Of a stretch of 35,978 nucleotides of DNA, positions 9,118 through 35,978 are shown piece after piece (within the stretch, counting starts at the first letter, position 1; the number at the start of each line of letters is the position of its first letter). The stretch is from IMG/VR virus record IMGVR_UViG_3300044641_001507, positions 1 to 35,978 of that record, one strand, 5' to 3'. The notes below the pieces were generated by a model. That model was not told the origin of the DNA and searched no databases. It saw nothing but the letters and a program-made list of their open reading frames with translations. The stretch is from a virus. Position numbers and translations under genes: made by a program.

Positions 9118-9456
9118 ATGGACAAGTGGCAGATTCTCTTTCTGAAGGGCGCGACCTACGAGCAGCAGATTGCTTTGTCGGGAATAACCGATATTGCAAC
9201 AGCAACGAACTGGCGTGTGCGAGTTGCGCAACCAAACGCGGTTCCGTTTTTGGACGCGACCATTACCAATGGAATGATCGTGGATATTGTCCCGCCCACG
9301 ACAGGAATCAAGAAGTTGGTGGTTCCGGCGGCGACCACCGCGACCTTCCCGACGGGCAATTGCCGATTCGATTTTGAGGTTGAATGGGCAGGCGGGATTG
9401 TGCGACGGTACTACGAGAACGGGCAGGCACAGGTCAACCCAAAGGTTGGCGCATGA
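9118..9456 (+). CDS. Small tail/baseplate protein with BppU-N-like beta domain
   Basis: A 112-residue protein with a clear GGAGG ribosome site. The order KGATYEQQIALSGIT, then RVRVAQPNA, then TGNCRFDFEVEWAGG and RRYYENGQAQVNP fits the small Ig-like or BppU-N-type domain found in proteins that connect receptor-binding parts to the tail tip: a strand pair about a ligand-like opening, a central hairpin, and an ending strand with G-x-v-x-v-x-p. Its stop overlaps the start of the first tailspike (ATGA), so it is made with it, which fits an adaptor role. Assignment is by pattern only. Confidence 0.5.
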   Translation: MDKWQILFLKGATYEQQIALSGITDIATATNWRVRVAQPNAVPFLDATITNGMIVDIVPPTTGIKKLVVPAATTATFPTGNCRFDFEVEWAGGIVRRYYENGQAQVNPKVGA

Positions 9457-11888
9457 GTGCGGAAATCACCGTTTCGATCAACAGCATCGGAATCACGATT
9501 GCGACAGGAACCGTCAACAGCATCACCGCAGGCGCAGGACTGACGGGCGGAACAATCACACAAGCCGGAACGATTGCGGCGGATTTTGCGCCAAACGGCG
9601 GCGGAACAGCCACGCAACTTGTTGGTGCCACGGATTTGCGGTTGTCAAACGCAAGGACTCCTTCGGGAGCCGCTGCAGGCGATTTGTCGGGGTCGTACCC
9701 AAGCCCGTCCGTGACGCGGCTGGCGGGAACGGCCGTAGATACGTCGGGGCCATCTATCGCGGATGTATGGCAGTTCAACGGAACCCAATGGATTCACGTT
9801 CCGCAGAACACCTTGTCCACGAATGCCGTTTTGTTTGCCACGCAGCCGATTGATCAGAACCCCCCGAGCGTTGGCGATGTGTGGCAATGGACCGGGGTGA
9901 AGTGGGATCACGTTCCTGTTTCAAGCGTTGCGACGGACGCAACACTGGTCAACTACACCGCCTCCGGGTCGGGAGTTGTCACGCGGACTGTTGCGAATCG
10001 CCTGAACGATGTCATCAGCGTCAAAAACTTCGGGGCCGTCGGGGACGGAAATGCCGATGACACGGCTGCTATAGATGCTGCGTTGACGGCTGCAATGGGG
10101 AAAACCTTGTTCTTCCCGGCCGGAACATATGTGATGAAGGCGACCGGAACGCGGCAGATTCTCAAGACGCTGACCGGGCCGCTGGAGATCATCGGGCAGG
10201 AGGCAACAATTGTCTGTGACCCGACCTCGGGCCATGTCGCACAGATGATCTACCTGATTCCGAACAGCATGACGCTCAAGGTGTCGGGGCTGTCGTTTGA
10301 CGCAAATCAAAAGGCGTTGACCTGCCTTCAGGTGGAGGATTCGGTCACGCAAGGCGATCATTCCGTCTACATCGAGCGCTGCGCATTCCGAAATACGTTT
10401 GGGATCGTCGGAGGGGTCGCGGGGGTCACGACCAACTGTGGGGCGTGGTTCGGTGGCGGGTTCAAATATGTGTCAATCACGAACACGGTTTCAGAGAATC
10501 ACAGCAGGGCGTTGAACGCAAGCATCCCGTTCACCTCATCCACCCTCGGGATTTTCATTGCAAACAGCGCAACGAGATACCCGGAAAACGTGTATGTCGC
10601 AGGATGCCTGATTGCGAACATCACGAACTCCAACACCGACGTTTCTAACTTCAACATTGATGTCGATGGCTTGAGCATTTTCGGCGGGCTGTCCAACGGA
10701 TCGACGTATGTTCCGTCGCGCGCCATCGTGGTCAACAACACGTTTGTGAACTGCAAGGGTCGGTCGGTCAAGATTCAGAACGACGAAACCACGCTGTCCA
10801 ACAACACCGTTCGATTCGCCATCAAGCCATGCGGCACAACATCAAACGGCGCGTTGCAGACGTTTGGTGGAATCCTTGACGTTCAAGGTTCTGCAGGAGT
10901 CATTACGGGCAACGTGTTTCACTACGACCTTGCTCCCGGCGGGCAAAATCCGTTCAGCGTGCTAAACACGCCTCCTGCGCTGAACGAAGGCGGATACTGC
11001 TTTGGCAGTTACTATTCCGCCAACAACATCGGGATGCGACCGCGCAGCCTGATCTTTACGGACAACGTCATCTACAACAATGTGCCAGAGGCAGTTGGAC
11101 ACTTGCGGCAGATCGTGCAGACGGCAGAGCAAACGGCTGCGCTGATGACAGGGGCGAACGCGCAGCCAGCCTTTATCACAATTCGGAACAACAGAATGCT
11201 TGGCGGGGCGGTGCAGGATTTCGCGTTCGTCGGACTCCGCGACGGTGCCGTGTCGAACGGCAAGATGTATATGACGGTGTCTGAAAATTACGCCAGCAAG
11301 ATGCAGCGAAGCCTGATGGTCGCCGGGTCGGTCGGGACGTTTGACAGCAACCACTTTGTCTGCGTCGGAAACGTGAATGCCAGCGGCACCGCCGTGGCGC
11401 ACCTGATTGACAGCACGGCGGCTGCTCCGCTGTACCCGACCAACATCACGGCCATTGCGAACGTCAACATCGGGTTGGAGGCATCACAGGAAGGTGCCAC
11501 GGGCTTGTCGTTCATTCCGCGACTTGGAGGCTGCGCCCCGATGCAGGCAGGGTATGCGGGGATGTCGATTCAAACCGTGACGCTTGCCAGCGGAGCCTCC
11601 CACACTTTCCCGCGAAGGTATGTCAATACGGAAGGGGCCACGTTCTTGATCGTGTCCAACAACATCGGCGGCACGGCCAACGCCATGTTCACCTTGCAGG
11701 GTGCCACGGGCGGGACGCTCATCACGAATTGGGCTAACAGCGCAGCGGACATCGCCGCATCAGGTGGCCCGCCAAGCGTTGCCGGAACGCTTGGCATTGG
11801 GCGGGATGTGGCAACCGCAAACGAACCCATCCGAATCAAAAACAACTTTACCGGGAGTCGGTCCTTTACCCTGTTCACGTTTGGATGA
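9453..11888 (+). CDS. Tailspike 1 with pectate-lyase-like beta-helix
   Basis: ATG 9453 overlaps the previous stop, giving 811 residues. Residues 20-90 form a collar/anchor like that of many tail fibres (GAGLTGGTITQAGTIAADF, then ATDLRLSNARTPSGAAAGDL). Residues 105-155 hold two similar W-Q-F-N-G-x-Q-W-x-H-V-P units. At 190-210 is VKNFGAVGDGNADDTAAIDA, the entry motif of the pectate-lyase-3 beta-helix, and the remainder is strand-rich with N-N-T and N-I ladders typical of such helices. Spikes of this type bind and often cleave host surface polysaccharide. No catalytic residues can be assigned by eye. A second spike with the same N-terminus follows. Confidence 0.75.
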   Translation: MSAEITVSINSIGITIATGTVNSITAGAGLTGGTITQAGTIAADFAPNGGGTATQLVGATDLRLSNARTPSGAAAGDLSGSYPSPSVTRLAGTAVDTSGPSIADVWQFNGTQWIHVPQNTLSTNAVLFATQPIDQNPPSVGDVWQWTGVKWDHVPVSSVATDATLVNYTASGSGVVTRTVANRLNDVISVKNFGAVGDGNADDTAAIDAALTAAMGKTLFFPAGTYVMKATGTRQILKTLTGPLEIIGQEATIVCDPTSGHVAQMIYLIPNSMTLKVSGLSFDANQKALTCLQVEDSVTQGDHSVYIERCAFRNTFGIVGGVAGVTTNCGAWFGGGFKYVSITNTVSENHSRALNASIPFTSSTLGIFIANSATRYPENVYVAGCLIANITNSNTDVSNFNIDVDGLSIFGGLSNGSTYVPSRAIVVNNTFVNCKGRSVKIQNDETTLSNNTVRFAIKPCGTTSNGALQTFGGILDVQGSAGVITGNVFHYDLAPGGQNPFSVLNTPPALNEGGYCFGSYYSANNIGMRPRSLIFTDNVIYNNVPEAVGHLRQIVQTAEQTAALMTGANAQPAFITIRNNRMLGGAVQDFAFVGLRDGAVSNGKMYMTVSENYASKMQRSLMVAGSVGTFDSNHFVCVGNVNASGTAVAHLIDSTAAAPLYPTNITAIANVNIGLEASQEGATGLSFIPRLGGCAPMQAGYAGMSIQTVTLASGASHTFPRRYVNTEGATFLIVSNNIGGTANAMFTLQGATGGTLITNWANSAADIAASGGPPSVAGTLGIGRDVATANEPIRIKNNFTGSRSFTLFTFG

Positions 11889-11979
11889 TGTCGTTATTGT
11901 CGGCGGGTCGCGTGCATACATCAATCACCGTAGCAAACAAGACAAATCGCAGAGGCTCGTCAGCGACTAAAGGAACAGA

Positions 11980-13722
11980 ATGAGCGCAGAGGTCATCGTC
12001 ACGACGAACAACATCGGCGTAACCCTTGCGTCGGGCACCGTCACCAGCATTACGGCAGGCACAGGGCTGACGGGTGGCACCATCACGCAGGCTGGAACCA
12101 TCGCTGCGGATATTGCTCCGAGCGGAGGCGGATCGGCCACGCAACTTGTCGGCGCAACGGATGTGCGCTTGTCAAACGCGAGAAACCCATCAGGAGCGGC
12201 GGCGGGCGATCTGTCTGGAAACTATCCGAACCCAACCGTGTCAAGGTTGGCTTCGTCCAACATCGACACGGCTACGCCAAGCATCGGGGATGTTTGGCAA
12301 TTTACGGGGTTGCAATGGTCGCACGTTCCGGCCAACACCATCACGGCGAACGCGGGATTATTTGCAACTCAACCAATCAATTTTTCTACCCCTGCGGTCG
12401 GAGATGTGTGGCAGTTCAACGGTTCTCAATGGGATCACGTTCCTGTTGCAAGCCTTGTATCCGATGCCTCGTTGGTGAATTACACATCTACGGGAAGCGG
12501 GGCCGTGACGCGAACGGTCGCAAGCCGCCTTGATGATGTTGCCAGCGTCAAGAACTTCGGGGCTGTTGGAGATGGTGTTGCCAACGACGGCGCGGCCATT
12601 GCGCTTGCGTTGGCAAGCAACGCCAAGACCGTGTATCTGCCGGAAGGAACCTATCGGGTTACATCAACGATTGAGATTCCGAACGGAAAGACGCTTCGCG
12701 GAAGCGGCGCGGGAACGATCATCCAAGCGGATTCCGTGACAGGCGCGGTTGTCACAACGTTTGTTGGAGCGTTTACGGGCACGTTCCGGTCGTATCAGTT
12801 CCTCAAAGATGTGACGATTTCAGGCACGTTCAATCATGCCGTCGTATGGTCGTGCGCAATTTTTGGCGGCATGTCCAACGTGAACGTTCGCAACGCAACG
12901 TGCACTAACGGGTTCGTCGTGGATGGATCGTTCGGCTGCACGTTCCATCGGCTGTCCACCGAGGGGTCCACCATCAGCAACGCGTGTTTTTGGGCGGCGC
13001 GGGATTTCAATGCCAACCACTTGGACACGCTCTATACGTCAAACTTCTGCAACTTCAATTTCCTGTCGCAGAAAACGAATGCGGGCAGCGTCAGCCCGTA
13101 CAACCCGGTTGCTCCGATTTCGGGAACTGGCTCGACGTTGTCCAACGTGTGTTGTCAAGGCGGCGTAGTTGGTATGGCTCTCTACGGGGTTGATTACGGC
13201 GGATGGACGATCAACTCCCCGTATTTTGAGAACGTGGTGCTGCCCATTCAACTTGGCAATCGTGCATTGCCTGAATTGTGTCGGAGCATTACGTTCAACT
13301 CCCCGTTCTTGGTTGGGCCAGCCACGGCCATCTCGCATCCAAGCGGGCCATCGACTCACGCGCTTGACATTGACAACGCCGTGAACATCACGATCAACAG
13401 CATGGAGTTCGGTGGGTTCGGCGGCACTTCACCCACTACGACCCTGATTCACTATCACACTTCGCATAAGGTGCTTGTCAACAATTTCTATCTTACCACG
13501 GGCGGAATTGGTAGTCGGATCACCAATCAGATTCGTCGGAAGGCCGGGGCAGATGCCGATGGGGGGTTGTTCATCATTGGCGAAGAACTTGACTCAAGCA
13601 ATAGTTTTCGGGCACACTTCATGTTGATGAAGTCAGAGAACTTGGGACACGAACATTGGAAGTTGGCGATCAACAATAATGGGCATTGGCATTCAAACTC
13701 GGTAGTGCCTCCATTGGTCTGA
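11980..13722 (+). CDS. Tailspike 2, paralogue with different beta-helix
   Basis: This 580-residue protein has an AAAGGAA site and repeats the architecture of the upstream spike: a related N-terminal 200 residues (GTGLTGGTITQAGTIAADI, ATDVRLSNARNPSGAAAGDL, two WQF-x-G-x-QW-x-HVP units, then VKNFGAVGDGVANDGAAIAL) followed by an unrelated, shorter strand-rich end. Shared anchor and divergent end suggest that both attach to the same tail part but recognise different surface sugars, or act in sequence. The beta-helix motif is seen directly; depolymerase activity is inferred. Residues 215-240 (KTVYLPEGTYRVTSTIEIPN) are the usual first coil of the pectate-lyase-like helix. Confidence 0.75.
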   Translation: MSAEVIVTTNNIGVTLASGTVTSITAGTGLTGGTITQAGTIAADIAPSGGGSATQLVGATDVRLSNARNPSGAAAGDLSGNYPNPTVSRLASSNIDTATPSIGDVWQFTGLQWSHVPANTITANAGLFATQPINFSTPAVGDVWQFNGSQWDHVPVASLVSDASLVNYTSTGSGAVTRTVASRLDDVASVKNFGAVGDGVANDGAAIALALASNAKTVYLPEGTYRVTSTIEIPNGKTLRGSGAGTIIQADSVTGAVVTTFVGAFTGTFRSYQFLKDVTISGTFNHAVVWSCAIFGGMSNVNVRNATCTNGFVVDGSFGCTFHRLSTEGSTISNACFWAARDFNANHLDTLYTSNFCNFNFLSQKTNAGSVSPYNPVAPISGTGSTLSNVCCQGGVVGMALYGVDYGGWTINSPYFENVVLPIQLGNRALPELCRSITFNSPFLVGPATAISHPSGPSTHALDIDNAVNITINSMEFGGFGGTSPTTTLIHYHTSHKVLVNNFYLTTGGIGSRITNQIRRKAGADADGGLFIIGEELDSSNSFRAHFMLMKSENLGHEHWKLAINNNGHWHSNSVVPPLV

Positions 13723-24383: not shown

Positions 24384-24404
24384 GGGGCGATGCGACCGCC
24401 CCTT
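24384..24404 (+). terminator. GC hairpin between the P4 gene and promoter P5
   Basis: GGGGCG (24384-24389) pairs with CGCCCC (24397-24402) and is followed by only TT, the start of the P5 -35 box. It is probably a weak terminator or pause that also adjoins the next promoter. Confidence 0.4.
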
Positions 24405-24431
24405 GCATCCCCCGCGTAACGGGGGTACAAT
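24403..24431 (+). promoter_or_regulatory. Early promoter P5 with internal inverted repeat
   Basis: TTGCAT (24403-24408), 17-base spacer, TACAAT (24426-24431). CCCCCG (24409-24414) and CGGGGG (24420-24425) form an inverted repeat between them. The -35 is weaker than in the others. Drives the ERF gene. Confidence 0.65.
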
Positions 24432-24438
24432 GACGCAC

Positions 24439-24476
24439 GGGCGCAGGTCGCGCCCACCGCACCCGGCGGGTCCGGG
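24439..24476 (+). promoter_or_regulatory. Two-hairpin leader, copy 4
   Basis: Hairpin 1: GGGCGC-AGGTC-GCGCCC (24439-24455), at the predicted +1. Hairpin 2: CCCGG-CGGGT-CCGGG (24462-24476), where the loop-closing pair is reversed relative to copies 1 and 2. AAGGAGACA then ATG 24490. Confidence 0.8.
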
Positions 24477-24489
24477 CAAGGAGACAGAC

Positions 24490-25290
24490 ATGGAAACGAG
24501 CGAAACGACGGGAGCCATCGCAGCCGCGCTTGCCAAGGCGCACTTGGAGATCGACAACCCGGAACTGGACGGCATCAACCCGCACTTCGAGTCACGCTTC
24601 AGCACCCTTGCCGCCGTGCTGAACGCCGTCCGCAAGCCCCTCGCCAAGCAGGGCATCGCGCTCATGCAGTCGGTCAGCATCGCGGACAGCCGCGTGGCCG
24701 TCACCACCAGCATGATCCACGCTTCCGGCGAATGGATGCGGGAAACGATGGCGTTCCCCATCGCAGGCGGGGCCAACGTCCAGCAGGCCGGATCGACCGT
24801 CACCTACCTGCGCCGCTACAGCCTCATCAGCCTGTGCGCCATCGTGGGCGACCCCCACGAAGATGACGATGGCGATGCCGACCGCGCCGACCGAACGGAG
24901 CAGGCGAAGCAGCAGCCGCGCCAGCGCACGAACCGCGAGGCGTTCAAGCCCGACCGCGCCAAGGGCGCACCGCCCGCCCCGGAAGCCCCGGCGCAGCCCA
25001 ACGGCGTGATGGACCGCTTCCCCGACGAGTTTGAGGGGGAGGTGACCGTCTGCCGCGTCACCCGCAGGCAGGGCAGGCCGCACGCGGTGCAGGTCGAACA
25101 CCCCGACCACGGGCGGGCATGGGTGCAGACCAAAATTGAGGACTTCGCCGCGTGCCTTGAGGACGCGGTGGGACAGAAGCGCATCCTTGGGATGTTCCGC
25201 ATCGGGCCTGCGTTGGACATCACGCACATCAAGAACTGCGTGCAGGAAGCCGCGACGGTCGATGCCGACGCGAACGCCCTGCCGTTCTGA
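24490..25290 (+). CDS. erf: ERF-family single-strand annealing protein
   Basis: Starts at ATG 24490 behind AAGGAGA; 266 residues. Residues 15-145 (DNPELDGINPHFESRFSTLA with AVLNAVRKPLAKQGIALMQ and later GSTVTYLRRYSLISLCAIVG, then D-D-D) match the ERF superfamily, which anneals complementary single strands for recombination or circularisation. A charged linker (150-190) leads to a second domain with OB-like strands (DEFEGEVTVCRVTRRQGRPH). It ends DADANALPF, similar to the acidic hydrophobic tail of SSB. With RusA it forms a recombination system; the Gp157 gene follows in the same transcript. Confidence 0.85.
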   Translation: METSETTGAIAAALAKAHLEIDNPELDGINPHFESRFSTLAAVLNAVRKPLAKQGIALMQSVSIADSRVAVTTSMIHASGEWMRETMAFPIAGGANVQQAGSTVTYLRRYSLISLCAIVGDPHEDDDGDADRADRTEQAKQQPRQRTNREAFKPDRAKGAPPAPEAPAQPNGVMDRFPDEFEGEVTVCRVTRRQGRPHAVQVEHPDHGRAWVQTKIEDFAACLEDAVGQKRILGMFRIGPALDITHIKNCVQEAATVDADANALPF

Positions 25291-26199: not shown

Positions 26200-26622
26200 A
26201 TGGAGAACCCCACCGATACGCCGGGGGGCATGGGGGGCGACCGGGCAGCGCGTTGGGAACAACGCCAACACCTGCGCGTCATTGAAGAAGCCGTCTACGA
26301 CGGGTGGGAAGTTCCCGTGGAGGCTTCCAAGGCCATCCCCGGCACCCTTCGGTCGATCATGGATGATCCGAATGCCAGCACCCGTGACCGCATCCGTGCT
26401 GCCGAATGCCTTGCGCACCTGCGCCGGGAACGCATCGACGCGGTGCTGCAACTGGACCGAATCGCACGACTTGACGCTGGCACCGCCACGGAGCGCGTGG
26501 AAGTCATGGAGGGGCTGACCGACAGCCAACTCGCCGCCGTTGCACGGTCCATCGCCGCCCCCGCTGCCCCCACCGCGCCTAAATCCCCCAAGCCGTGCCG
26601 AAAGCGCAAGCGCAAGCCCTGA
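26200..26622 (+). CDS. terS: Probable small terminase subunit
   Basis: A 140-residue protein with AGGAGGG before ATG 26200 and a 28-base overlap with the large terminase. It is helical, basic at the end, and contains VEASKAIPGTLRSIMDDPNA followed by STRDRIRAAECLAHLRRERI, a pair of helices that could bind DNA. Small terminases recognise the packaging start site and sit directly before the large subunit; its sequence is diverse in phages, so the call rests mostly on position. The end is rich in A/P and finishes with basic KRKRKP. Confidence 0.65.
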   Translation: MENPTDTPGGMGGDRAARWEQRQHLRVIEEAVYDGWEVPVEASKAIPGTLRSIMDDPNASTRDRIRAAECLAHLRRERIDAVLQLDRIARLDAGTATERVEVMEGLTDSQLAAVARSIAAPAAPTAPKSPKPCRKRKRKP

Positions 26623-28055
26623 CCCCGGAAGCGGCGGTCGCCGCCGCCCGCGAGAACCCCGCCGCCTTCATCGCGCTTGCCATCGGCAAGTCCGTGTCCG
26701 GGCTGCAACGGGAGATGCTGCACCACGCCCTGACGCACCACGATTGGTACGCCGAAATCCCCCGTGGGCACGCCAAGACATCGACCTTCGCCTACCTGAC
26801 CGCATGGTGGCTTGGGGTCCGACCCGACACCCGATTCAAGATCGTTTCACAGAACGATGAAACGGCATCGGCTACCAGCCGCTTCATCCGCGACATCATC
26901 CGCAGCCCCATGTACCGGGCTACGTTCCCCGGCGTGACGCTCAAGCCGGGGGAGGACACCGTCACCGCGTGGTCCGTGGTCGCGTCCAACATGGCACCCC
27001 GCCGTGACCCGTCCGTGCAGGCCAGCGGCGTGTTCGGGCGCACGGGTGGCCGTGCGGACATCCTGTGGTTCGATGACCTGTGCGACCTCCGCAACTCCGT
27101 GCTGCAACCCGCCCTGCGTGAGCAGGTCAAGGAGGCCGTGAGCAACGTGTGGTTGCCGATGCTGGACCCATCCGGCGTGCATCCGTCCCGCGTGTGGCGG
27201 TCGGCTACCCCCTTCCATGTCGATGACCTGACCGCCGATTGGCGCAGGGAAGCCGAGGCGAAGGGGACGCTGCTGCGCCGCCCGTGCAAGGGACTGCAAA
27301 GCCCGTGGCCCGAGGTGTTTACGCCGTCGATCCTGACCCTGCGCCGATCCGCGATGGGGCCGATGGGCTACGCACGCGCCTACGAACTCGTCCCGCTCTC
27401 GTCGGACCTGCTGGTGTTCCGGCCCGAATGGGTGGGGTACTACCGCCCTGACGCGCTGCCCAAGGTGACCCGGACCATCGCCGCGTTGGATTGGGGGTAC
27501 GGCAAGAAGGCGCAGGAGCGCGATGACCCCGACTACAGCGTGTGCCTCGTCGGGGAGGTTGACCACGCCCGGAACCTGTACCTGACCGACATCCTGCGCG
27601 TGCGGGAATCGTTCCCCGTGTTCGCAAAGCAGGCCGCAAGCCTCCTGTCGCGCCGGGGTGCGTCGGTGGTGCTGGCCGAGGCGAACGGGCCGCAGAAGGG
27701 CATCTTCGACCAGTTCCGCGACATGTCCACGCAGCCCATGCTCGCCGTGGAGCGGACCACGGACAAGCACCTTCGGGCGGCAGGGGCGCAGCCCTTCGTG
27801 GAGCAGGGCAAACTCCTGTTCCCGATGGACGAGGGTGGCAAGGTACTGCCCGCGTTCCAGCCCGTACTGGACGAGATGCTTGCCTTCCCCGCCGGAGCGC
27901 ACGATGACACCGTGGACACGGTGGTTGACCTGTGCGCCGAGGCCGTGCGCGGCTCGCTGTCACCCGGCGAGAAGAACGTCGCCCGGATCGAAAAGCCCGA
28001 TGCCATTGGCCGGATGTTCGGTGCGCGTGCGCCCAAGCGTCCGTTCTTCGCCTAG
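26595..28055 (+). CDS. terL: Terminase large subunit
   Basis: GTG 26595 inside the end of the small-subunit gene; 486 residues. Walker A is E54-IPRGHAKTS (K61, T62), a variant usual in this class, Walker B is ILWFD160-D161. The C-terminal nuclease has D299 (AALDWGYG), E362 (VVLAEANG) and H436-D437-D438 (HDDTVD), the standard three-acid RNase-H-like centre. It cuts and packages concatemeric DNA into the prohead through the portal encoded further on. No ribosome site precedes the GTG, so it probably depends on translation of the small subunit. This is one of the safest calls in the window. Confidence 0.95.
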   Translation: MPKAQAQALTPEAAVAAARENPAAFIALAIGKSVSGLQREMLHHALTHHDWYAEIPRGHAKTSTFAYLTAWWLGVRPDTRFKIVSQNDETASATSRFIRDIIRSPMYRATFPGVTLKPGEDTVTAWSVVASNMAPRRDPSVQASGVFGRTGGRADILWFDDLCDLRNSVLQPALREQVKEAVSNVWLPMLDPSGVHPSRVWRSATPFHVDDLTADWRREAEAKGTLLRRPCKGLQSPWPEVFTPSILTLRRSAMGPMGYARAYELVPLSSDLLVFRPEWVGYYRPDALPKVTRTIAALDWGYGKKAQERDDPDYSVCLVGEVDHARNLYLTDILRVRESFPVFAKQAASLLSRRGASVVLAEANGPQKGIFDQFRDMSTQPMLAVERTTDKHLRAAGAQPFVEQGKLLFPMDEGGKVLPAFQPVLDEMLAFPAGAHDDTVDTVVDLCAEAVRGSLSPGEKNVARIEKPDAIGRMFGARAPKRPFFA

Positions 28056-28093: not shown

Positions 28094-29860
28094 GTGGCCG
28101 ACATTGACCTGACCCCCACGGAAGAAATGGCTGCGAACGCCAAGCGTGGCTTGGAACTGCGGCGCAAGCACGGACGCGGCGGAACGGCTGTCGGCGTGGC
28201 CCGTGCGCGTGACATCTCCAACCGCAAGACGCTGTCGCCGGAAACCGTGCGGCGGATGCACGCCTTCTTCAGCAGGCATGAGAAGAACAAGGCGGGCGGG
28301 GAGGACGATGCCGGGTACATCGCGTGGCTTCTGTGGGGCGGCGATTCGGGTCAATCATGGGCAAAGCGAAAGGTCGAACAAATGGACAAGAGCGAGAACC
28401 AGCGGAGCGAAACGTACAAGGCGATTGCGCAGCGGCTTGGCAGCGCGGCGAAGAACGACCGCCCCGGCGCGAAGGCGAGGTTTGCATTCAAGGTTGGCGA
28501 CCGCGTTCATGCAGGATTCGGTGTCGCTGGTGGCGCAGGCGTGGTCGGCACCATCACGAAGATCGAGGACGGCTACGCGCACATTCAGGCGGATGCCTCT
28601 GCGTCAGATCGGTACGGCCCCAAGACACACAAGGCTCCTCTGCGGCTGGTGACGGCGGCTCCGAAGAAGGCGTGGGAGTCCTCCCGCCCCGGCGCGAAGG
28701 CATCCTTCGCGCAGGACGCTCGCGCCGTGGCGCAGGAAATCCTGCGGCAACTCGGCGGCGGTCGCTTCATGGCGATGGTCGGCGGCAAGAACGCAATGCA
28801 CGGGACGTTCGGCGGCAAGCCCGGATTGCAGGTGAGCATCGGCAAGGGCGCGGAAGGTGGCATCAACCGCCTCATCGTCACGCTTGACCCGGCCACGGAC
28901 ACCTACAACATGGAGTTCTGGCGCATCGGCAATCGCGGCCTGTCCACGAAGAAGTTGTCGGAGGCGAGCATGGTGTACGCCGATGACCTCCAGCGCATCT
29001 TCACCGACCGCACGAAGTTCTACACTTCCATGTCTCGCCCCGGCGAGAAAACCGAGATGGCTGCGATTGACGCGGGCATGATGGACGGCGCGGGCAACGA
29101 AGTGGTCATCCGCATGGCCGATGGCTCACGCGCCACGGCGCGATACAACCGGGGAACCGGGAAGTGGTCGCTGGAAGGGCACGCCGATGTCCCGGCGTTC
29201 GCAAAGGTGCGCGACCTCGTGGCACACTTGACCAAGCAGGGCATGGCGCGACCGGGCGACAAATCAAAGATGGGCGCAAATGAAATGTCCACTCCGGAAG
29301 CCATCGCCAAGATGATGGAGGCGTGGAACAAGATTGAAGCGCAGGCGAAGAAGCAGTTTCCCAACGCAAGCAAGGAAGAAATCTATCGCATCACGAAGGA
29401 TGCGATGAATCACGCTTTGCGAACGAAGTTCTCCCGCCCCGGCGCGAAGGCGAGGATGGCGAAGCCACAGTTCCGGGTTCGCAAACTGCATAACGGATAT
29501 CTTGCGGTAGACCTGAATCAAGGGAGCGGGTGGGAACGCTACGACACAACGCATGAAGATTCGTGGGACGGATTGGAACCCTACGAACGCGGATATCAGA
29601 AGGCATACGACCGTGGATTGCGGTGGAGTGGCGGCGCGTGGCGTATCCCTAGCATCAAGTCCTCCCGCCCCGGCGCGAAGGTCACCAACGCCGTCCGCGA
29701 AGGCTGCAAGATCAGCGCGGAGGACGAAGCCTGCCTCAAGATGATGGCCGCTGCCGACGAGAAGGTGAGCGACAAGATTCGCACCCTCATCGCAGAGGGC
29801 AAGCCGCAGAAGCAGGCCGTCGCAATCGCACTTGACCTCAAGCGCAGGGGAGAACTGTGA
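28094..29860 (+). CDS. 588-residue modular head protein with six RPG-K linkers
   Basis: The protein begins at GTG 28094. Residues 1-100 (GLELRRKHGRGGTAVGVARA, LSPETVRRMHAFFSRHEKNK, IAWLLWGGDSGQSWAKRKVE) form a domain common in phage head-region proteins. Six near-copies of S-R-P-G-A-K-A-x-[FM]-A occur at about 122-131, 197-206, 314-324, 385-395, 447-456 and 524-533, dividing the chain into seven modules of about 50-120 residues. The last module (IRTLIAEGKPQKQAVAIALD) is a motif also seen in other phage proteins. The linkers look like sites for the prohead protease, so it may be an internal polyprotein. Its start has no ribosome site (leaderless) and its end overlaps the portal. Confidence 0.65.
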   Translation: MADIDLTPTEEMAANAKRGLELRRKHGRGGTAVGVARARDISNRKTLSPETVRRMHAFFSRHEKNKAGGEDDAGYIAWLLWGGDSGQSWAKRKVEQMDKSENQRSETYKAIAQRLGSAAKNDRPGAKARFAFKVGDRVHAGFGVAGGAGVVGTITKIEDGYAHIQADASASDRYGPKTHKAPLRLVTAAPKKAWESSRPGAKASFAQDARAVAQEILRQLGGGRFMAMVGGKNAMHGTFGGKPGLQVSIGKGAEGGINRLIVTLDPATDTYNMEFWRIGNRGLSTKKLSEASMVYADDLQRIFTDRTKFYTSMSRPGEKTEMAAIDAGMMDGAGNEVVIRMADGSRATARYNRGTGKWSLEGHADVPAFAKVRDLVAHLTKQGMARPGDKSKMGANEMSTPEAIAKMMEAWNKIEAQAKKQFPNASKEEIYRITKDAMNHALRTKFSRPGAKARMAKPQFRVRKLHNGYLAVDLNQGSGWERYDTTHEDSWDGLEPYERGYQKAYDRGLRWSGGAWRIPSIKSSRPGAKVTNAVREGCKISAEDEACLKMMAAADEKVSDKIRTLIAEGKPQKQAVAIALDLKRRGEL

Positions 29861-31320
29861 GCAAGAAGCGCGGCACCGATCCGAACCCGTTGCAGAACGG
29901 ACTCACGCCGGAACAGCGTCCGCGCAAGCCGTTGCCCGCTCCCGTGGAGCGCGGCATCACCCTGCCCCTCGCCACCCCGGTGGAGGTGCAGCGTTCGTTC
30001 TTCACGACCGCCGACAAGTTGCTGCGGAACGCCAGCCTCGCCTACAGGCTGAACCCGCAGTACCAGATGATGATGCGGGCCGACGCGGACATCGAAGGTG
30101 TCCTGCGGTCGCTCCAAGTCACCCTTGCGTCCCTTGAATGGGCCGTGGTGTCCGATGACGAGGAGAACCCCCGGCTGGTCGAACTGGCCGACCGCATCTC
30201 CCGCATCTTCGACGCGATGCCCCGGCGGTCGGACTTCGTCCGGTCCATGCACGAAGCCGTGTGGTACGGCAACTCCGCGTGCAACATCGTCTACCGCAAG
30301 GACGAGCGCACGGGCGTGGCGGTCAAAGAGTGGTATCCGTTCCACCCCGACACCCTCGCCTACGACCAGCGCGGCAACCTCGCCATGCGCGTGGGCGCGG
30401 ACTACTCCGCGCACGGGCCGTCCGAGCAGAACATCGGCTTCGACAGCCGCGTGCATATCTTCACCGAGGACGAGCGGAAGGCCATCGTGCTGCACCGCGT
30501 GTTCGTCGCGGCCCCCGACTTCAACGACCCCAACAGCAGCGAGAGCATCTACCGGGGCGTGGGCGCACGCGATGTCTGTTGGTTCATGTGGCTTGCGAAG
30601 CAGGAGATTCTTCAGGACGCGATCACCTACGCGGAGCGGTACGCGATGGGCATTCGCGTGGGGTACTACCCGCTTGGGCAGGACGCGGGCCGCTCCATGA
30701 TGGAGAACGTGCTTGCGAACCTGACGAACGACAACAGCGTGCTGCTGCCGCAGTCGGGCACCGAGAAGGTCTACGACATCGACATCAAGGAGCCGAACGC
30801 GGGCCGCGCCACGGTGTTCCTTGACCTTGTCAACTGGTTCTCCTCCAAGATCAAGGAAGCGATCCTTGGGCAGTCGCTCTCTAGCGAGGCGGGCAGCACC
30901 GGATTGGGGTCGGGCGTGGCAAGCCTGCACGCGGACACGCTCTCCCGAATCATCCGCTACCACGCCGACGCGCTCGCGGACAGCCTCACGACCGACTTCG
31001 TGCGCGTCATCGCGCAGATGCTTGGCGCGTCCGAGGACGAGGTCTGCGCTCTGCGCTTCCAGTTTGCCCCCGAGCGGCCCGACCCGAAGGAGCGGCTTGA
31101 GGCGATTGAGAAGTTCGTGGCGATGGGCGGCAAGGTCAGCGAGGCCGAGGTCCGCGACCTGCTTGGGCTGTCGCAGCCGAAGGAGGACGAGGCGGTGCTT
31201 GGCAGCAGCGGAGTCACCAATCCCATCGACGCGATTCTGGGGCAGAATGGCATTCTGCCCGAGGGCGCGGAACCCGCTTCCGGCGTTCCCACGACCTTCC
31301 GGCGCACGCGCTGGCTCTGA
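29857..31320 (+). CDS. Portal protein, DUF935 (Mu gp29-like)
   Basis: GTG 29857 overlaps the previous stop; 487 residues. The sequence GQSLSSEAGSTGLGSGVASL with the following HADTLSRIIRYHADALADSL is the classic DUF935 signature, and the earlier FVRSMHEAVWYGNSACNIVY and later LGLSQPKEDE segments fit the family. Twelve copies form the ring through which DNA enters the capsid and which joins the tail. Its neighbours (terminase, MuF-like protein, gp36-like protein) form the Mu-type head set. The call is firm. Confidence 0.9.
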   Translation: MSKKRGTDPNPLQNGLTPEQRPRKPLPAPVERGITLPLATPVEVQRSFFTTADKLLRNASLAYRLNPQYQMMMRADADIEGVLRSLQVTLASLEWAVVSDDEENPRLVELADRISRIFDAMPRRSDFVRSMHEAVWYGNSACNIVYRKDERTGVAVKEWYPFHPDTLAYDQRGNLAMRVGADYSAHGPSEQNIGFDSRVHIFTEDERKAIVLHRVFVAAPDFNDPNSSESIYRGVGARDVCWFMWLAKQEILQDAITYAERYAMGIRVGYYPLGQDAGRSMMENVLANLTNDNSVLLPQSGTEKVYDIDIKEPNAGRATVFLDLVNWFSSKIKEAILGQSLSSEAGSTGLGSGVASLHADTLSRIIRYHADALADSLTTDFVRVIAQMLGASEDEVCALRFQFAPERPDPKERLEAIEKFVAMGGKVSEAEVRDLLGLSQPKEDEAVLGSSGVTNPIDAILGQNGILPEGAEPASGVPTTFRRTRWL

Positions 31321-32506: not shown

Positions 32507-33046
32507 ATGGCAGACGCAACGATCATCACCTACCAGCGGAACTTCAGCAACGTGAGCGTTGCAAGCGTGGGCGCGTCCTACGGAAGCATCGCCACCCTGT
32601 CGGCCACCAAGCCAAGCAGCGGCGTGGTTCACGATCAGCAGTTGAGCAGCATTTCCCCGTCCCTCCTGCGGATCATGCCGTACGCAAGCAGCACCAGCAT
32701 TGGTGCGGCGACGGGCGTGCGCGTGGTGGGATGGACGGGCGAAGTCAACACCGCCGACGGCCTGACCTACTACATCCCGACGGTCCTTGCGGATTTCAAC
32801 CTGACGTTCAGCAGCGGTACGGTTCCGACCTACAGCCTTGACGGTGGTACGCAGCGTCCGTTCGCCATCATCACGCAGGTGGCCGGAACCCCGGCGGCAA
32901 ACCTTTATAGCCCCGGAACGGCTGCTGCCGCGAACGTCGAACCAGCAGCCGCGCTGGTGGACATCGTCGGCTGTCAGATCGTCACCGTGCAGTTCAGGGC
33001 CGCAAGCGGTACGCCGACGATGGGCGTGTTCTCTACCACGATCTAA
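32507..33046 (+). CDS. Head-region structural protein, function unrecognised
   Basis: Starts at ATG 32507, giving 179 residues. The chain is beta-rich and rich in S, T, A and G (GASYGSIATLSATKPSSGVV, VNTADGLTYYIPTVLADFNL, FAIITQVAGTPAANLYS) without membrane or enzyme motifs. This resembles small capsid-attached or fibre-base proteins. Its TAATG overlap with the following fibre gene suggests the two are assembled together. A role as base of the fibre, or as a second decoration protein, is possible. Confidence 0.5.
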   Translation: MADATIITYQRNFSNVSVASVGASYGSIATLSATKPSSGVVHDQQLSSISPSLLRIMPYASSTSIGAATGVRVVGWTGEVNTADGLTYYIPTVLADFNLTFSSGTVPTYSLDGGTQRPFAIITQVAGTPAANLYSPGTAAAANVEPAAALVDIVGCQIVTVQFRAASGTPTMGVFSTTI

Positions 33047-34629
33047 TGCGCCGCAGTACCCGGATGTCCCGACCGACGCTGTCCGGTTCATCCCGGTCGG
33101 CGGTCCTGCTTGGCAACGATGGCGACGGCTCCACGCTCACCCTTGACTTCACCACGGGCGTCCTTGACCCTCGCCTGACGTTCACGCGGGCAAGCGGCGG
33201 GACGTACACCGGAAACGATGGCTTGGTGTACGGCATGGACTTTGCCACCAGCGGTTCGCTTTCCATCGGCACGGGTTCAAGGTCGGTGACCCTGACGGCT
33301 ACGGCTGGCGTTGACCGCCGCTACCTCGTCGGGCAGACGGTCTACATCAGCAACGGCGCGAACAACATGAGCGGCCCGGTGACGGCCTACAACGCATCGA
33401 CGCAAGTGCTGACGATCAATGCGACGGCAACGAGCGGGAGCGGTTCGTTCACTTCGTGGTCAGTCGGTAACGCATCTGCCCGCTTCGACTACGACCCGAC
33501 CACGCTGGCACCCAAGGGACTGCTGATTGAGGGGACGGCGACGAGTCTTTCGCGTAGTTCACAGAACTTGACGGACGCGACGTACTGGACACTTCAGACG
33601 GCGTACGCCTCAACCTCCGCAACTGGAGGTACTGCGCCTGATGGCACCAACACGGGCAGCCTGTTCACCGAGCCATCTTCAAATCTTCAGAGGTCGATCT
33701 ATCAGTCGTACAGCAGCGCAGCAGGAACCTACACGTTCTCCGTGTGGCTCAAAGCCGGAAGCGGAAGCACGCGGTACATGCGGCTCGTCGTGTCATCGGG
33801 CGCAAGCGACTTTGGCTATGTCACGATCAATATGAGCACGGGGGCGATTCAGCAGGCGGCAACCGTTGTCGGTACTGCAACAAACGCATCAGCAACCGTG
33901 TCCGGGAATTACACGGCGACTGGATGGCGCAGGTACTCATTGACAGTCACTTTGGCTGCGTCGGTCAATTTCGCGTTCTTGGTTCCTATTGACCTTGCAT
34001 CAATCGACACTCCAACGACAAACTACGGTCGGGTGTCGTACTTGGGTGATGGCTCATCATTCTTGATCTGGGGCGCACAACTCGAAGCAGGCTCCGGTGC
34101 CTCCTCTTACATCCCGACCGGGGCCAGCACGGCGTTCCGCAATCAAGATCAGATGCAGATGACCAATCTCGCATCCCTCGGTTTCAACACCTCTGCCGGA
34201 ACGATGACCATCAACGGGACATACAACAAGGATGCCAACGCATTCCCGCGTTCCATTAGGTTTATGGGTTCGTCTGTGCAGTCGATGGCGATGATTACTG
34301 CCGGGAAAACGTTGTATGGAAATGCGCCGAATACATCGGGCGGAACGTATTTAGATGTGTTCAGGACGCTTTCTTCCTTTGGTGCATTCAAGTACGGGTT
34401 CACTCTAACGACTGCCACAAGTCCAGCAACCGCATTGGCCGTTGTCAGCCTCAACGGATCATCAGCAACGATTACTCCGCTTGGTCAAGGAGACATCGTC
34501 AATCCAATATCGTTGGATTTTCTGTATCCGTCTGCTTCTGCTCTCAACTTTCCGAGCATGAACATCTCATCGGTCAAGTATTGGCCGTATGCCATGACTA
34601 GCGCCCAACTGAACGCAATGACCACCTGA
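33046..34629 (+). CDS. Head-fibre-like protein with carbohydrate-binding-type domain
   Basis: A 527-residue protein. Residues 44-56 (LTFTRASGGTYTG), 146-163 (RFDYDPTTLAPKGLLIEG), then a lectin-like block (TYTFSVWLKAGSGSTRYMRL, GWRRYSLTVTL) and near 345-363 FLIWGAQLEAGSGASSYIPT form a widely seen phage pattern of carbohydrate-binding, jelly-roll-type beta domains attached to fibres. The terminal part is beta-rich and variable. Because it lies among head genes and not with the tail, it may decorate the capsid and bind host surface or mucus. ATG 33046 overlaps the previous stop; ATG 33064 is an alternative. Binding is inferred from the pattern. Confidence 0.6.
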   Translation: MRRSTRMSRPTLSGSSRSAVLLGNDGDGSTLTLDFTTGVLDPRLTFTRASGGTYTGNDGLVYGMDFATSGSLSIGTGSRSVTLTATAGVDRRYLVGQTVYISNGANNMSGPVTAYNASTQVLTINATATSGSGSFTSWSVGNASARFDYDPTTLAPKGLLIEGTATSLSRSSQNLTDATYWTLQTAYASTSATGGTAPDGTNTGSLFTEPSSNLQRSIYQSYSSAAGTYTFSVWLKAGSGSTRYMRLVVSSGASDFGYVTINMSTGAIQQAATVVGTATNASATVSGNYTATGWRRYSLTVTLAASVNFAFLVPIDLASIDTPTTNYGRVSYLGDGSSFLIWGAQLEAGSGASSYIPTGASTAFRNQDQMQMTNLASLGFNTSAGTMTINGTYNKDANAFPRSIRFMGSSVQSMAMITAGKTLYGNAPNTSGGTYLDVFRTLSSFGAFKYGFTLTTATSPATALAVVSLNGSSATITPLGQGDIVNPISLDFLYPSASALNFPSMNISSVKYWPYAMTSAQLNAMTT

Positions 34630-34971: not shown

Positions 34972-35978
34972 ATGAGCCATCCTTCGCACCGCATCACCGA
35001 CAACGGCAAGAGCGTGGTCATCCACGGTCTTGAGGTGTTCTGCGCGTATGACCCGGCCATTGACGGGGAGAGCGACCCCGAACTCAAGAAGTTCGACAAC
35101 GAGCGCGTCCGCGACATCGTGGACAGCACGCGGCGATACATGGAACGCGGGTCCATGCCTCGCTTGGTGGTCATGCACGAAAAGGACGGCAACGAGCCGA
35201 AGTCGGCGGTGGGCCGATTCACGGACATTGCATACGAGGAGCGCGACGGGGTCGGATACATCGTGGGTGACTGCGAAGTGGAGCGATCCGTGTTCGACCG
35301 CCTTCTTGCCACCAACGCCTTCCCGCGCCGCAGCGCGGAGATTTGGGCGGAACAGAATCACCTGTCGGAAGTCGCGCTGCTCGGGCGTGAAACCCCGCGC
35401 CGCCCGCTCCCCGACACTCACTTCACCCGCACGGGTGAACTGGTCCGGTTTTCACGTTCGCTTCGCTTCGACATGGGGACGGTCGGAGGCGGGCTATCCA
35501 CGTTCGTTCCCGGTACGAAGGACAACAACATGGCGATGAATTACGAGAAGGAAATCGCTGCGCTGAAGGCTTCGATGGACGAGATGAAGTCCATGATGAA
35601 GAAGCACTACGGCACGGGCGATGAGGAGGAGAAGAAGGAGGAGATGGCCGCTGAAGACATGATCGTTGACCAGTTCGCGGAGGAATCCGGCGAGGGCGAC
35701 GGCGTGCACATCGACATCGACTCCCACGGTGGCGAGGAGGAGGAGGAGGACGAGATGGACGAGGCGATGTTCCCCGCCGCTCGTCCCGGCAAGGCCGACA
35801 CGTTCGCGCTGCGCCGCGAGAACGCTCGGCAGGCCCGTGAACTGCGCGAACTCAAGGCCGAGTTTGCCCGTGAGCGGTTCAGCCGCGAACTGGACCTCAT
35901 GGAGCAGGAGGGCTACCGCATCCCCGCTTCGCACCGTCCCCGCCTGCTCGCGGAACTCGCCGCTAGCAGCAACGCGGC
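34972..35978 (+). CDS. Capsid maturation protease/scaffold fusion, 5' part (continues at base 1)
   Basis: The open frame runs from ATG 34972 off the window and continues in frame at base 2; the joined protein is 396 residues. Residues 63-145 (PRLVVMHEKDGNEPKSAVGR, NAFPRRSAEIWAE, LSEVALLGRETPRRPLP) resemble Mu gpI-like/U35-type head maturation proteases, with H69 and S121 as possible catalytic residues. Residues 187-262 are charged helix (MKSMMKKHYG, poly-E near 255-260), scaffold-like. Internal in-frame starts with SD sites (ATG 35530 and ATG 35755) could make a separate scaffold. Motifs GGGLSTFVPGTKD (172-184) and AARPGKADTFA (269-279) match other virion proteins. Confidence 0.8.
   Translation, partial: MSHPSHRITDNGKSVVIHGLEVFCAYDPAIDGESDPELKKFDNERVRDIVDSTRRYMERGSMPRLVVMHEKDGNEPKSAVGRFTDIAYEERDGVGYIVGDCEVERSVFDRLLATNAFPRRSAEIWAEQNHLSEVALLGRETPRRPLPDTHFTRTGELVRFSRSLRFDMGTVGGGLSTFVPGTKDNNMAMNYEKEIAALKASMDEMKSMMKKHYGTGDEEEKKEEMAAEDMIVDQFAEESGEGDGVHIDIDSHGGEEEEEDEMDEAMFPAARPGKADTFALRRENARQARELRELKAEFARERFSRELDLMEQEGYRIPASHRPRLLAELAASSNA
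35832..35978. repeat. Terminal redundancy: copy of bases 1-147
   Basis: The last 147 bases equal the first 147 except at 35958 (C for T at 127) and 35964 (T for C at 133). Both changes are third-position and silent (Leu and Ala codons). The overlap lies within one gene, so it is best read as an assembly overlap of a circular or circularly permuted genome of about 35,831 bp in a mixed population. Confidence 0.85.

Follow-up and report, generated by a model that had tools for sequence, protein, structure and literature searches.

A phage cassette-array gene with modules exchanged at a conserved in-frame DNA linker and a putatively head-packaged product

We describe a viral gene that encodes a chain of small, unlike modules joined by a recurring linker, and in which modules are swapped between related phages at these linkers. 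The window, by which we mean the whole stretch of DNA that was analysed, is a virus record of 35,978 bases, and the cassette-array gene occupies positions 28094..29860 on its plus strand. We consider it fairly likely that this gene specifies a recombination-built cassette protein that would be packaged in the phage head and cut by the prohead protease.

Results

Seven modules and six linkers in one reading frame

The product of the array gene has 588 aa, begins at a GTG start and is divided into seven modules by six linkers. The gene is flanked by that of the terminase large subunit (26595-28055) on one side and by a Mu-type portal gene (29857-31320, PF06074) on the other. A first-pass annotation, made from the letters alone, had proposed seven modules separated by six (S/A)RPGxK linkers at R123, R198, R315, R386, R448 and R525, and both the division and the positions were borne out. 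It had also placed the gene next to portal and protease genes, which is correct for the portal only; the protease gene, which occupies 34972 to the window end, is 5.1 kb further downstream.

All modules and linkers lie on the plus strand. The constant N-terminal module (28094..28456, residues 1-121) leads through linker 1 (28457..28486, DRPGAKARFA, R123) to module 2 (28487..28681, residues 132-196), a small β-barrel resembling Tudor/KOW/PWWP barrels, which also occurs in L001, L006, L005, L007 and L011 (L numbers denote the loci compared). Linker 2 (28682..28711, SRPGAKASFA, R198) precedes module 3 (28712..29032, residues 207-313; phrog_9437), and linker 3 (29033..29062, SRPGEKTEMA, R315), a swap junction relative to L001, opens onto module 4 (29063..29245, residues 324-384), an orphan with relatives in L025 and L091. 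Beyond linker 4 (29246..29275, ARPGDKSKMG, R386) lies the helical orphan module 5 (29276..29431, residues 395-446), followed by linker 5 (29432..29461, SRPGAKARMA, R448) and the orphan module 6 (29462..29662, residues 457-523), which is sixth in the window, fifth in L003 and third in L004. Linker 6 (29663..29692, SRPGAKVTNA, R525), again a swap junction relative to L001, joins it to the constant C-terminal module (29693..29857, residues 534-588). The end modules match the widespread families phrog_2859 (first) and phrog_2423 (last), in agreement with their earlier description as common phage domains.

Four linker cores had been noted as near-identical: these read RPGAK and share the exact 15-mer CGCCCCGGCGCGAAG at the DNA level, and the remaining two read RPGEK and RPGDK. 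The tail xx[FM]A that had been included in the motif applies to four linkers and fails for two, the actual tails being FA, FA, MA, MG, MA and NA. A chance repeat is ruled out by a weight matrix trained on the linkers, which finds 407 sites in the ORFs of 158 sequences versus 1 in shuffled ORFs, and by the codon draws given below. The product was modelled with AlphaFold from a shallow alignment (mean pLDDT 58); each of the six linkers sits in a stretch with pLDDT below 50 (residues 115-129 for linker 1), flanked by better-predicted modules, and these stretches are probably disordered. Conservation of the motif as part of a folded domain, named beforehand as an observation that would speak against cleavage sites, was looked for in this predicted model and not seen, the linkers occupying low-confidence segments.

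Related arrays exchange their internal modules

Relatives were gathered from IMG/VR with the portal, the N-module and the protease as queries, and by an exact 17-mer scan. In IMG/VR we found 148 distinct array ORFs with at least two linkers, comprising 560 linker contexts. Arrays hold up to ten linkers with the consensus [F/M/A][S/A]RPGAKA[K/R][F/M][A/G] and are encoded between terminase and portal genes, between MuF and protease genes, or at both places; some phages (L025, L029, L032) have an array ahead of the portal gene and a second ahead of the protease gene. Cutting the 148 arrays at their linkers yields 467 internal modules with a median length of 71 aa, which form 189 families including 90 singletons, counts that vary with clustering and in which divergent linkers leave some modules merged. 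The Chao1 estimate is ~270-274 families. First and last modules are unchanged in most lineages and the internal modules are shuffled in order, with 96/99 multi-member families occurring in two or more neighbour pairs.

Module swapping at the linkers is directly observed among close relatives. The clearest example lies within a single species: L001, L003, L004 and L006 are 96-100% identical in nucleotides to the window over the terminase, portal, MuF and protease genes, as far as each fragment holds them. In the near-clonal L001, modules 4-6 are replaced; L003 and L004 retain just modules N, 6 and C of the window set, and L006 retains modules N, 2 and C. Module 5 of L008 is 92% identical in nucleotides to that of the window and its N-terminal module only 75%, and L015 matches the window at 96% in the C-module and 85% in the portal gene.

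Among isolate (cultured) phages we found no array, single modules (the N-terminal module and module 3) being the only counterparts. GTDB genomes held no real array apart from one short contig of a Nitrospiraceae assembly, L277, and a 20-mer scan of bacterial genomes gave ten matches, all by chance bar this small phage-like contig. The array of L277 (2808-4464) uses a second linker type, SRPGxPExF, which is nearer to the protease-type site described below. No silent cassette store elsewhere was seen in a 17-mer scan of the fetched loci. Linkers are the same within a lineage and differ between lineages (SRAG, SRTG and SRSG in L067, L068, L069 and L071), and in L067 and L071 the protease site is changed as well. 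Any lineage-wise covariation between linker and protease site is no more than suggestive.

The linker is a shared DNA element

We compared 223 array pairs with only the module right of a linker in common and 147 with only the left one, pairs that are not independent of one another. Nucleotide identity is ~0.95 in the common module and falls to ~0.28 within 1-5 codons of the linker edge, and the same drop is visible base by base between the window and L001 at linkers 3 and 6. Because DNA identity reaches background within so short a distance, we conclude that the recombination breaks lie in the linker.

The linker is also fixed at synonymous sites (TCCCGCCCCGGCGCGAAGGCGAAG). Over 348 linkers, the dominant codon accounts for a fraction of 0.92 versus 0.50 expected, and the maximum in 500 draws of the codon null was 0.52; these statistics include loci fetched by protein similarity only, those fetched by the exact 17-mer being left out. 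Individual codons reach 88% (TCC), 92% (CGC), 98% (CCC), 96% (GGC), 95% (GCG), 96% (AAG), 82% (GCG) and 99% (AAG), whereas the same non-lysine codons stand at 25-50% elsewhere in the same arrays. The F and A codons that follow the core show little bias. In viral contigs, the exact 17-mer CGCCCCGGCGCGAAGGC lies nearly always in frame within arrays; among the fetched loci this applies to 200/222 sites, and some of the remaining 22 are chance bacterial matches.

The motif as it occurs in the protease gene is written in mixed codons (Gly as GGT 16 times and GGC 11 times). Codon bias as the source of the DNA identity is ruled out by the other codons of the same arrays together with these protease sites. 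With linker codons fixed and protease-gene codons mixed, the array linker is therefore a shared DNA element and not a peptide alone. The near-identity of the linkers stems from their being the DNA junctions at which interchangeable cassettes recombine, with the silent positions conserved.

The motif recurs in a putative protease-scaffold protein

An ORF that runs off the window end (34972..35978, plus strand) encodes a putative head protease-scaffold protein with conserved H69 and S121 and a coiled-coil C-terminal part. Gene order and the invariant His/Ser pair underlie this label, together with the internal start of the scaffold-like tail and a weak PHROG match: phrog_2976, 'head maturation protease', matches 2/44 homologues (2.2e-4). 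Searching with the PF10123 profile brought up nothing at E<=10, Mu gpI reached an hhalign probability of 2% when profiles were compared, and a fold search gave no match, its AlphaFold query (mean pLDDT 58) being too poor to be informative. The tie of this ORF to known head proteases is weak. The gene is located between those of MuF and the MCP, and its scaffold forms the C-terminal part, as in Mu gpI. GAAGGA stands eight bases before an in-frame ATG at 35530 (window 35520-35531), whose methionine, M187, is nearly invariant in homologues. This points to a nested start for the scaffold, an arrangement known from Mu I/Z.

Two sites in this protein have the R-x-G-x4-F-[AS] spacing of the array linker. 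The first, F[TAVGNS]RxGx4F[AS]R, is found at the end of the protease domain in 68/68 full-length homologues (FTRTGELVRFSR, 35422..35457, plus strand). The second, [AY][ASTG]RxGx4FA[LMI][RK], stands just before the scaffold coiled coil in 60/68 and is changed in the other 8 (AARPGKADTFALR, 35776..35814, plus strand); AARPGKADTFA, to which the first-pass annotation had drawn attention, is indeed present at residues 269-279. A scan of other proteins, the check it had recommended, found a stricter form of the motif nearly absent from other non-array ORFs (28 matches, mostly in the protease-scaffold protein). In L023, the one locus whose MCP was searched, that protein showed no RPG motif. Between the two sites, the segment GGGLST[FY]VPGTKD (35477-35521) resembles the N-terminus of a putative MCP, VVGGGLSTYIPSTND (L023:8159-9196). 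A phrog_5939 'tail' protein (33046-34629) is encoded in an unusual place, between MuF and protease. Elsewhere, positions 9384-13722 hold two ORFs with pectate-lyase-like domains, which are probably tail spikes.

The linkers had originally been read as likely prohead-protease sites on account of their identity. The motif in the protease protein supports that reading; the identity itself reflects their role as DNA recombination junctions. We regard cleavage at the linkers as somewhat probable, as judged from this sequence pattern.

An alternative, which we consider unlikely, is that the array is delivered whole as an uncleaved protein of the polyvalent type, its linker being a flexible spacer kept uniform by recombination. 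The conserved silent sites mean that DNA exchange alone can account for linker uniformity, and known polyvalent proteins are multidomain and in several cases transferred uncut (PMC5512222). Homogenisation of the arrays cannot, however, explain why an equally spaced peptide, encoded by non-identical DNA, stands at two boundaries within the protease-scaffold protein.

An N-terminal module shared with the protease

Other lineages have 18 ORFs (including L074, L079, L119, L126, L132 and L345) in which the first module of the array is fused to the N-terminus of the protease, and in several of these cases (e.g. L119, L126, L132) the array is without it. A role in procapsid-core targeting fits because this domain is used by either the array or the protease, and the N-terminal module is probably such a targeting domain. 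We infer that the array protein is likely packaged in the head. A similar domain occurs in Vibrio phage 1.247.A, on a 657-aa protein encoded shortly before the capsid gene.

The linker could conversely be a docking peptide that targets capsid or scaffold, like a repeated T4 CTS, and not a cut site. T4 is known to use short head-targeting peptides (PMC9026906) and the motif also flanks the scaffold portion of the protease ORF, but a docking signal would be needless between every pair of modules, and the N-terminal domain, found joined to either protease or array, is the better targeting candidate. We hold the docking reading to be improbable.

A candidate agent of recombination

The window encodes an ERF-family single-strand annealing recombinase (24403..25290, plus strand; PF04404, 5.6e-17, 62.6 bits versus a cut-off of 25), beside which lies the gene of a Gp157-family protein. 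ERF is present in 15/21 long relatives and was not found in the other 6. Erf-type recombinases shuffle phage DNA across short or diverged homology (PMC3945230). On balance, ERF is a plausible agent of the cassette swapping, with the 24-bp homology as its candidate substrate. Shuffling by an integrase or resolvase, of the integron or shufflon type, was rejected, as no tyrosine integrase (PF00589) or resolvase (PF00239) exceeded the cut-off in 22 genomes.

This result also makes it very improbable that the linker, despite its near-invariant 24-bp core, is the site of a dedicated site-specific recombinase or a mobile repeat with the protein motif as a by-product. In addition, 17-mers outside arrays are few and chance-like, no consistent RNA hairpin forms at the linker (1/4 sequences folds better than its shuffles), and the motif of the protease gene uses other codons.

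Module content

The 146 family representatives gave almost no Pfam, PHROG, PADLOC or NCBIfam matches; no peptidase was found among them and almost no recognisable effector or enzyme domain. Module 3 is a separate gene of ~100 aa in many phages. Free-standing homologues in mobile elements would fit a module that is a small, host-directed protein. An anti-defence or take-over role of the modules is, to us, an evenly balanced proposition. On plasmids, too, module 3 occurs as a stand-alone hypothetical gene; it is present in 864 plasmid records, which are for the most part conjugative plasmids of Escherichia and Salmonella (hits H117-H125).

A surface or neck structural protein with domains varying for adhesion or decoration, unrelated to injection, would suit the structural gene neighbourhood and small β modules such as module 2, but is scarcely credible given that the protease-scaffold protein, whose site of action is the procapsid interior, has the first module too, that the modules are structurally mixed, and that module 3 is free-standing outside structural clusters in other phages and plasmids.

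Discussion

In our preferred account of a head-packaged, protease-cut cassette protein, a constant head-associated N-module and a constant C-module enclose variable, small, independent domains in one reading frame, joined by a ~24-bp in-frame repeat encoding (S/A)RPGAKA(K/R). Co-infecting phages would recombine at this repeat, probably through single-strand annealing by ERF, with modules being replaced, added, dropped or reordered. Since every junction carries this identical DNA in identical phase, swaps leave the frame intact. As protein, the repeat would be a disordered linker and probably also a prohead-protease cleavage site. The precursor would enter the procapsid core via its N-terminal domain and be cut into mini-proteins that remain in the head, and these may enter the host with the DNA, where they could counter defences or aid take-over. 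The idea of a 'protein integron' is put forward tentatively, as possible rather than probable: the 24-bp repeat would be at once recombination junction and protease cut site, and a common pool of hundreds of orphan mini-proteins, probably with anti-defence or take-over roles, would be reassorted by phage populations, made as a polyprotein, packaged, cut and injected.

The arrays provide a catalogue of ~190 observed small orphan phage domains, already cut by selection into independent, interchangeable units, and are the kind of place in which new anti-defence proteins might be found. Moreover, the old idea that phage modules recombine at conserved linkers becomes directly testable inside a single gene. 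If cut by the phage's own head protease, the array would constitute a fast-evolving, customisable protein load in the virus head, and one sequence serving as recombination homology and protease site would be a simple route to a modular injected arsenal. The motif string RPGAKA was not found in the literature searched.

Several known systems share parts of this design. MARTX toxins have constant ends, a modular central effector region and proteolytic release; they are bacterial secreted proteins with a built-in protease, and the likeness is one of analogy with no homology claimed. Phage mosaicism driven by Rad52-like/Erf proteins likewise involves exchange across short homologies by phage annealing recombinases (PMC3945230), whereas in the array the exchange points are internal to a single gene and coincide with a recurring in-frame linker whose silent sites are conserved.

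The gene order of array phages is reminiscent of phage Mu (portal gp29, gp30, protease I, nested scaffold Z), with the same portal and MuF families and, downstream of the protease, an internally initiated scaffold. However, the array-phage protease has no PF10123 match, the portal is only ~20-26% identical, and Mu has no array gene between the gene in the terminase position (gp28) and the portal.

The T4 internal proteins IPI-III carry a capsid targeting sequence and are cut by gp21, a protease whose substrates include the scaffold and gp21 itself; one of the three, IPI, acts against restriction (PMC9026906). As head proteins that are small and vary fast, and that have a short peptide in common (in T4 the protease site), IPI-III resemble the modules. 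The array motif is similarly common to the protease/scaffold precursor (at the 68/68 and 60/68 sites), a parallel of motif sharing only. Whereas each T4 internal protein has a gene of its own and a single N-terminal site (L/I-X-E), the array has many modules per ORF and RxGx4[FM][AG] sites.

Polyvalent proteins (Iyer et al. 2017, PMC5512222) resemble the array in uniting unrelated domains in one polypeptide, in their head-gene neighbourhood and in their mosaic content, and delivery with the DNA followed by proteolytic release is proposed for both. Multiple disparate domains in one phage polypeptide, a feature of that class, are present here as seven unlike modules, with 189 families across arrays. 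Yet polyvalent proteins consist mostly of large, recognisable enzyme domains and often contain their own metallopeptidase (zincin) domains (PMC5512222), whereas the array is built of tiny orphan modules, has one uniform linker conserved as DNA, exchanges its cassettes at strain level and would depend on a separately encoded protease.
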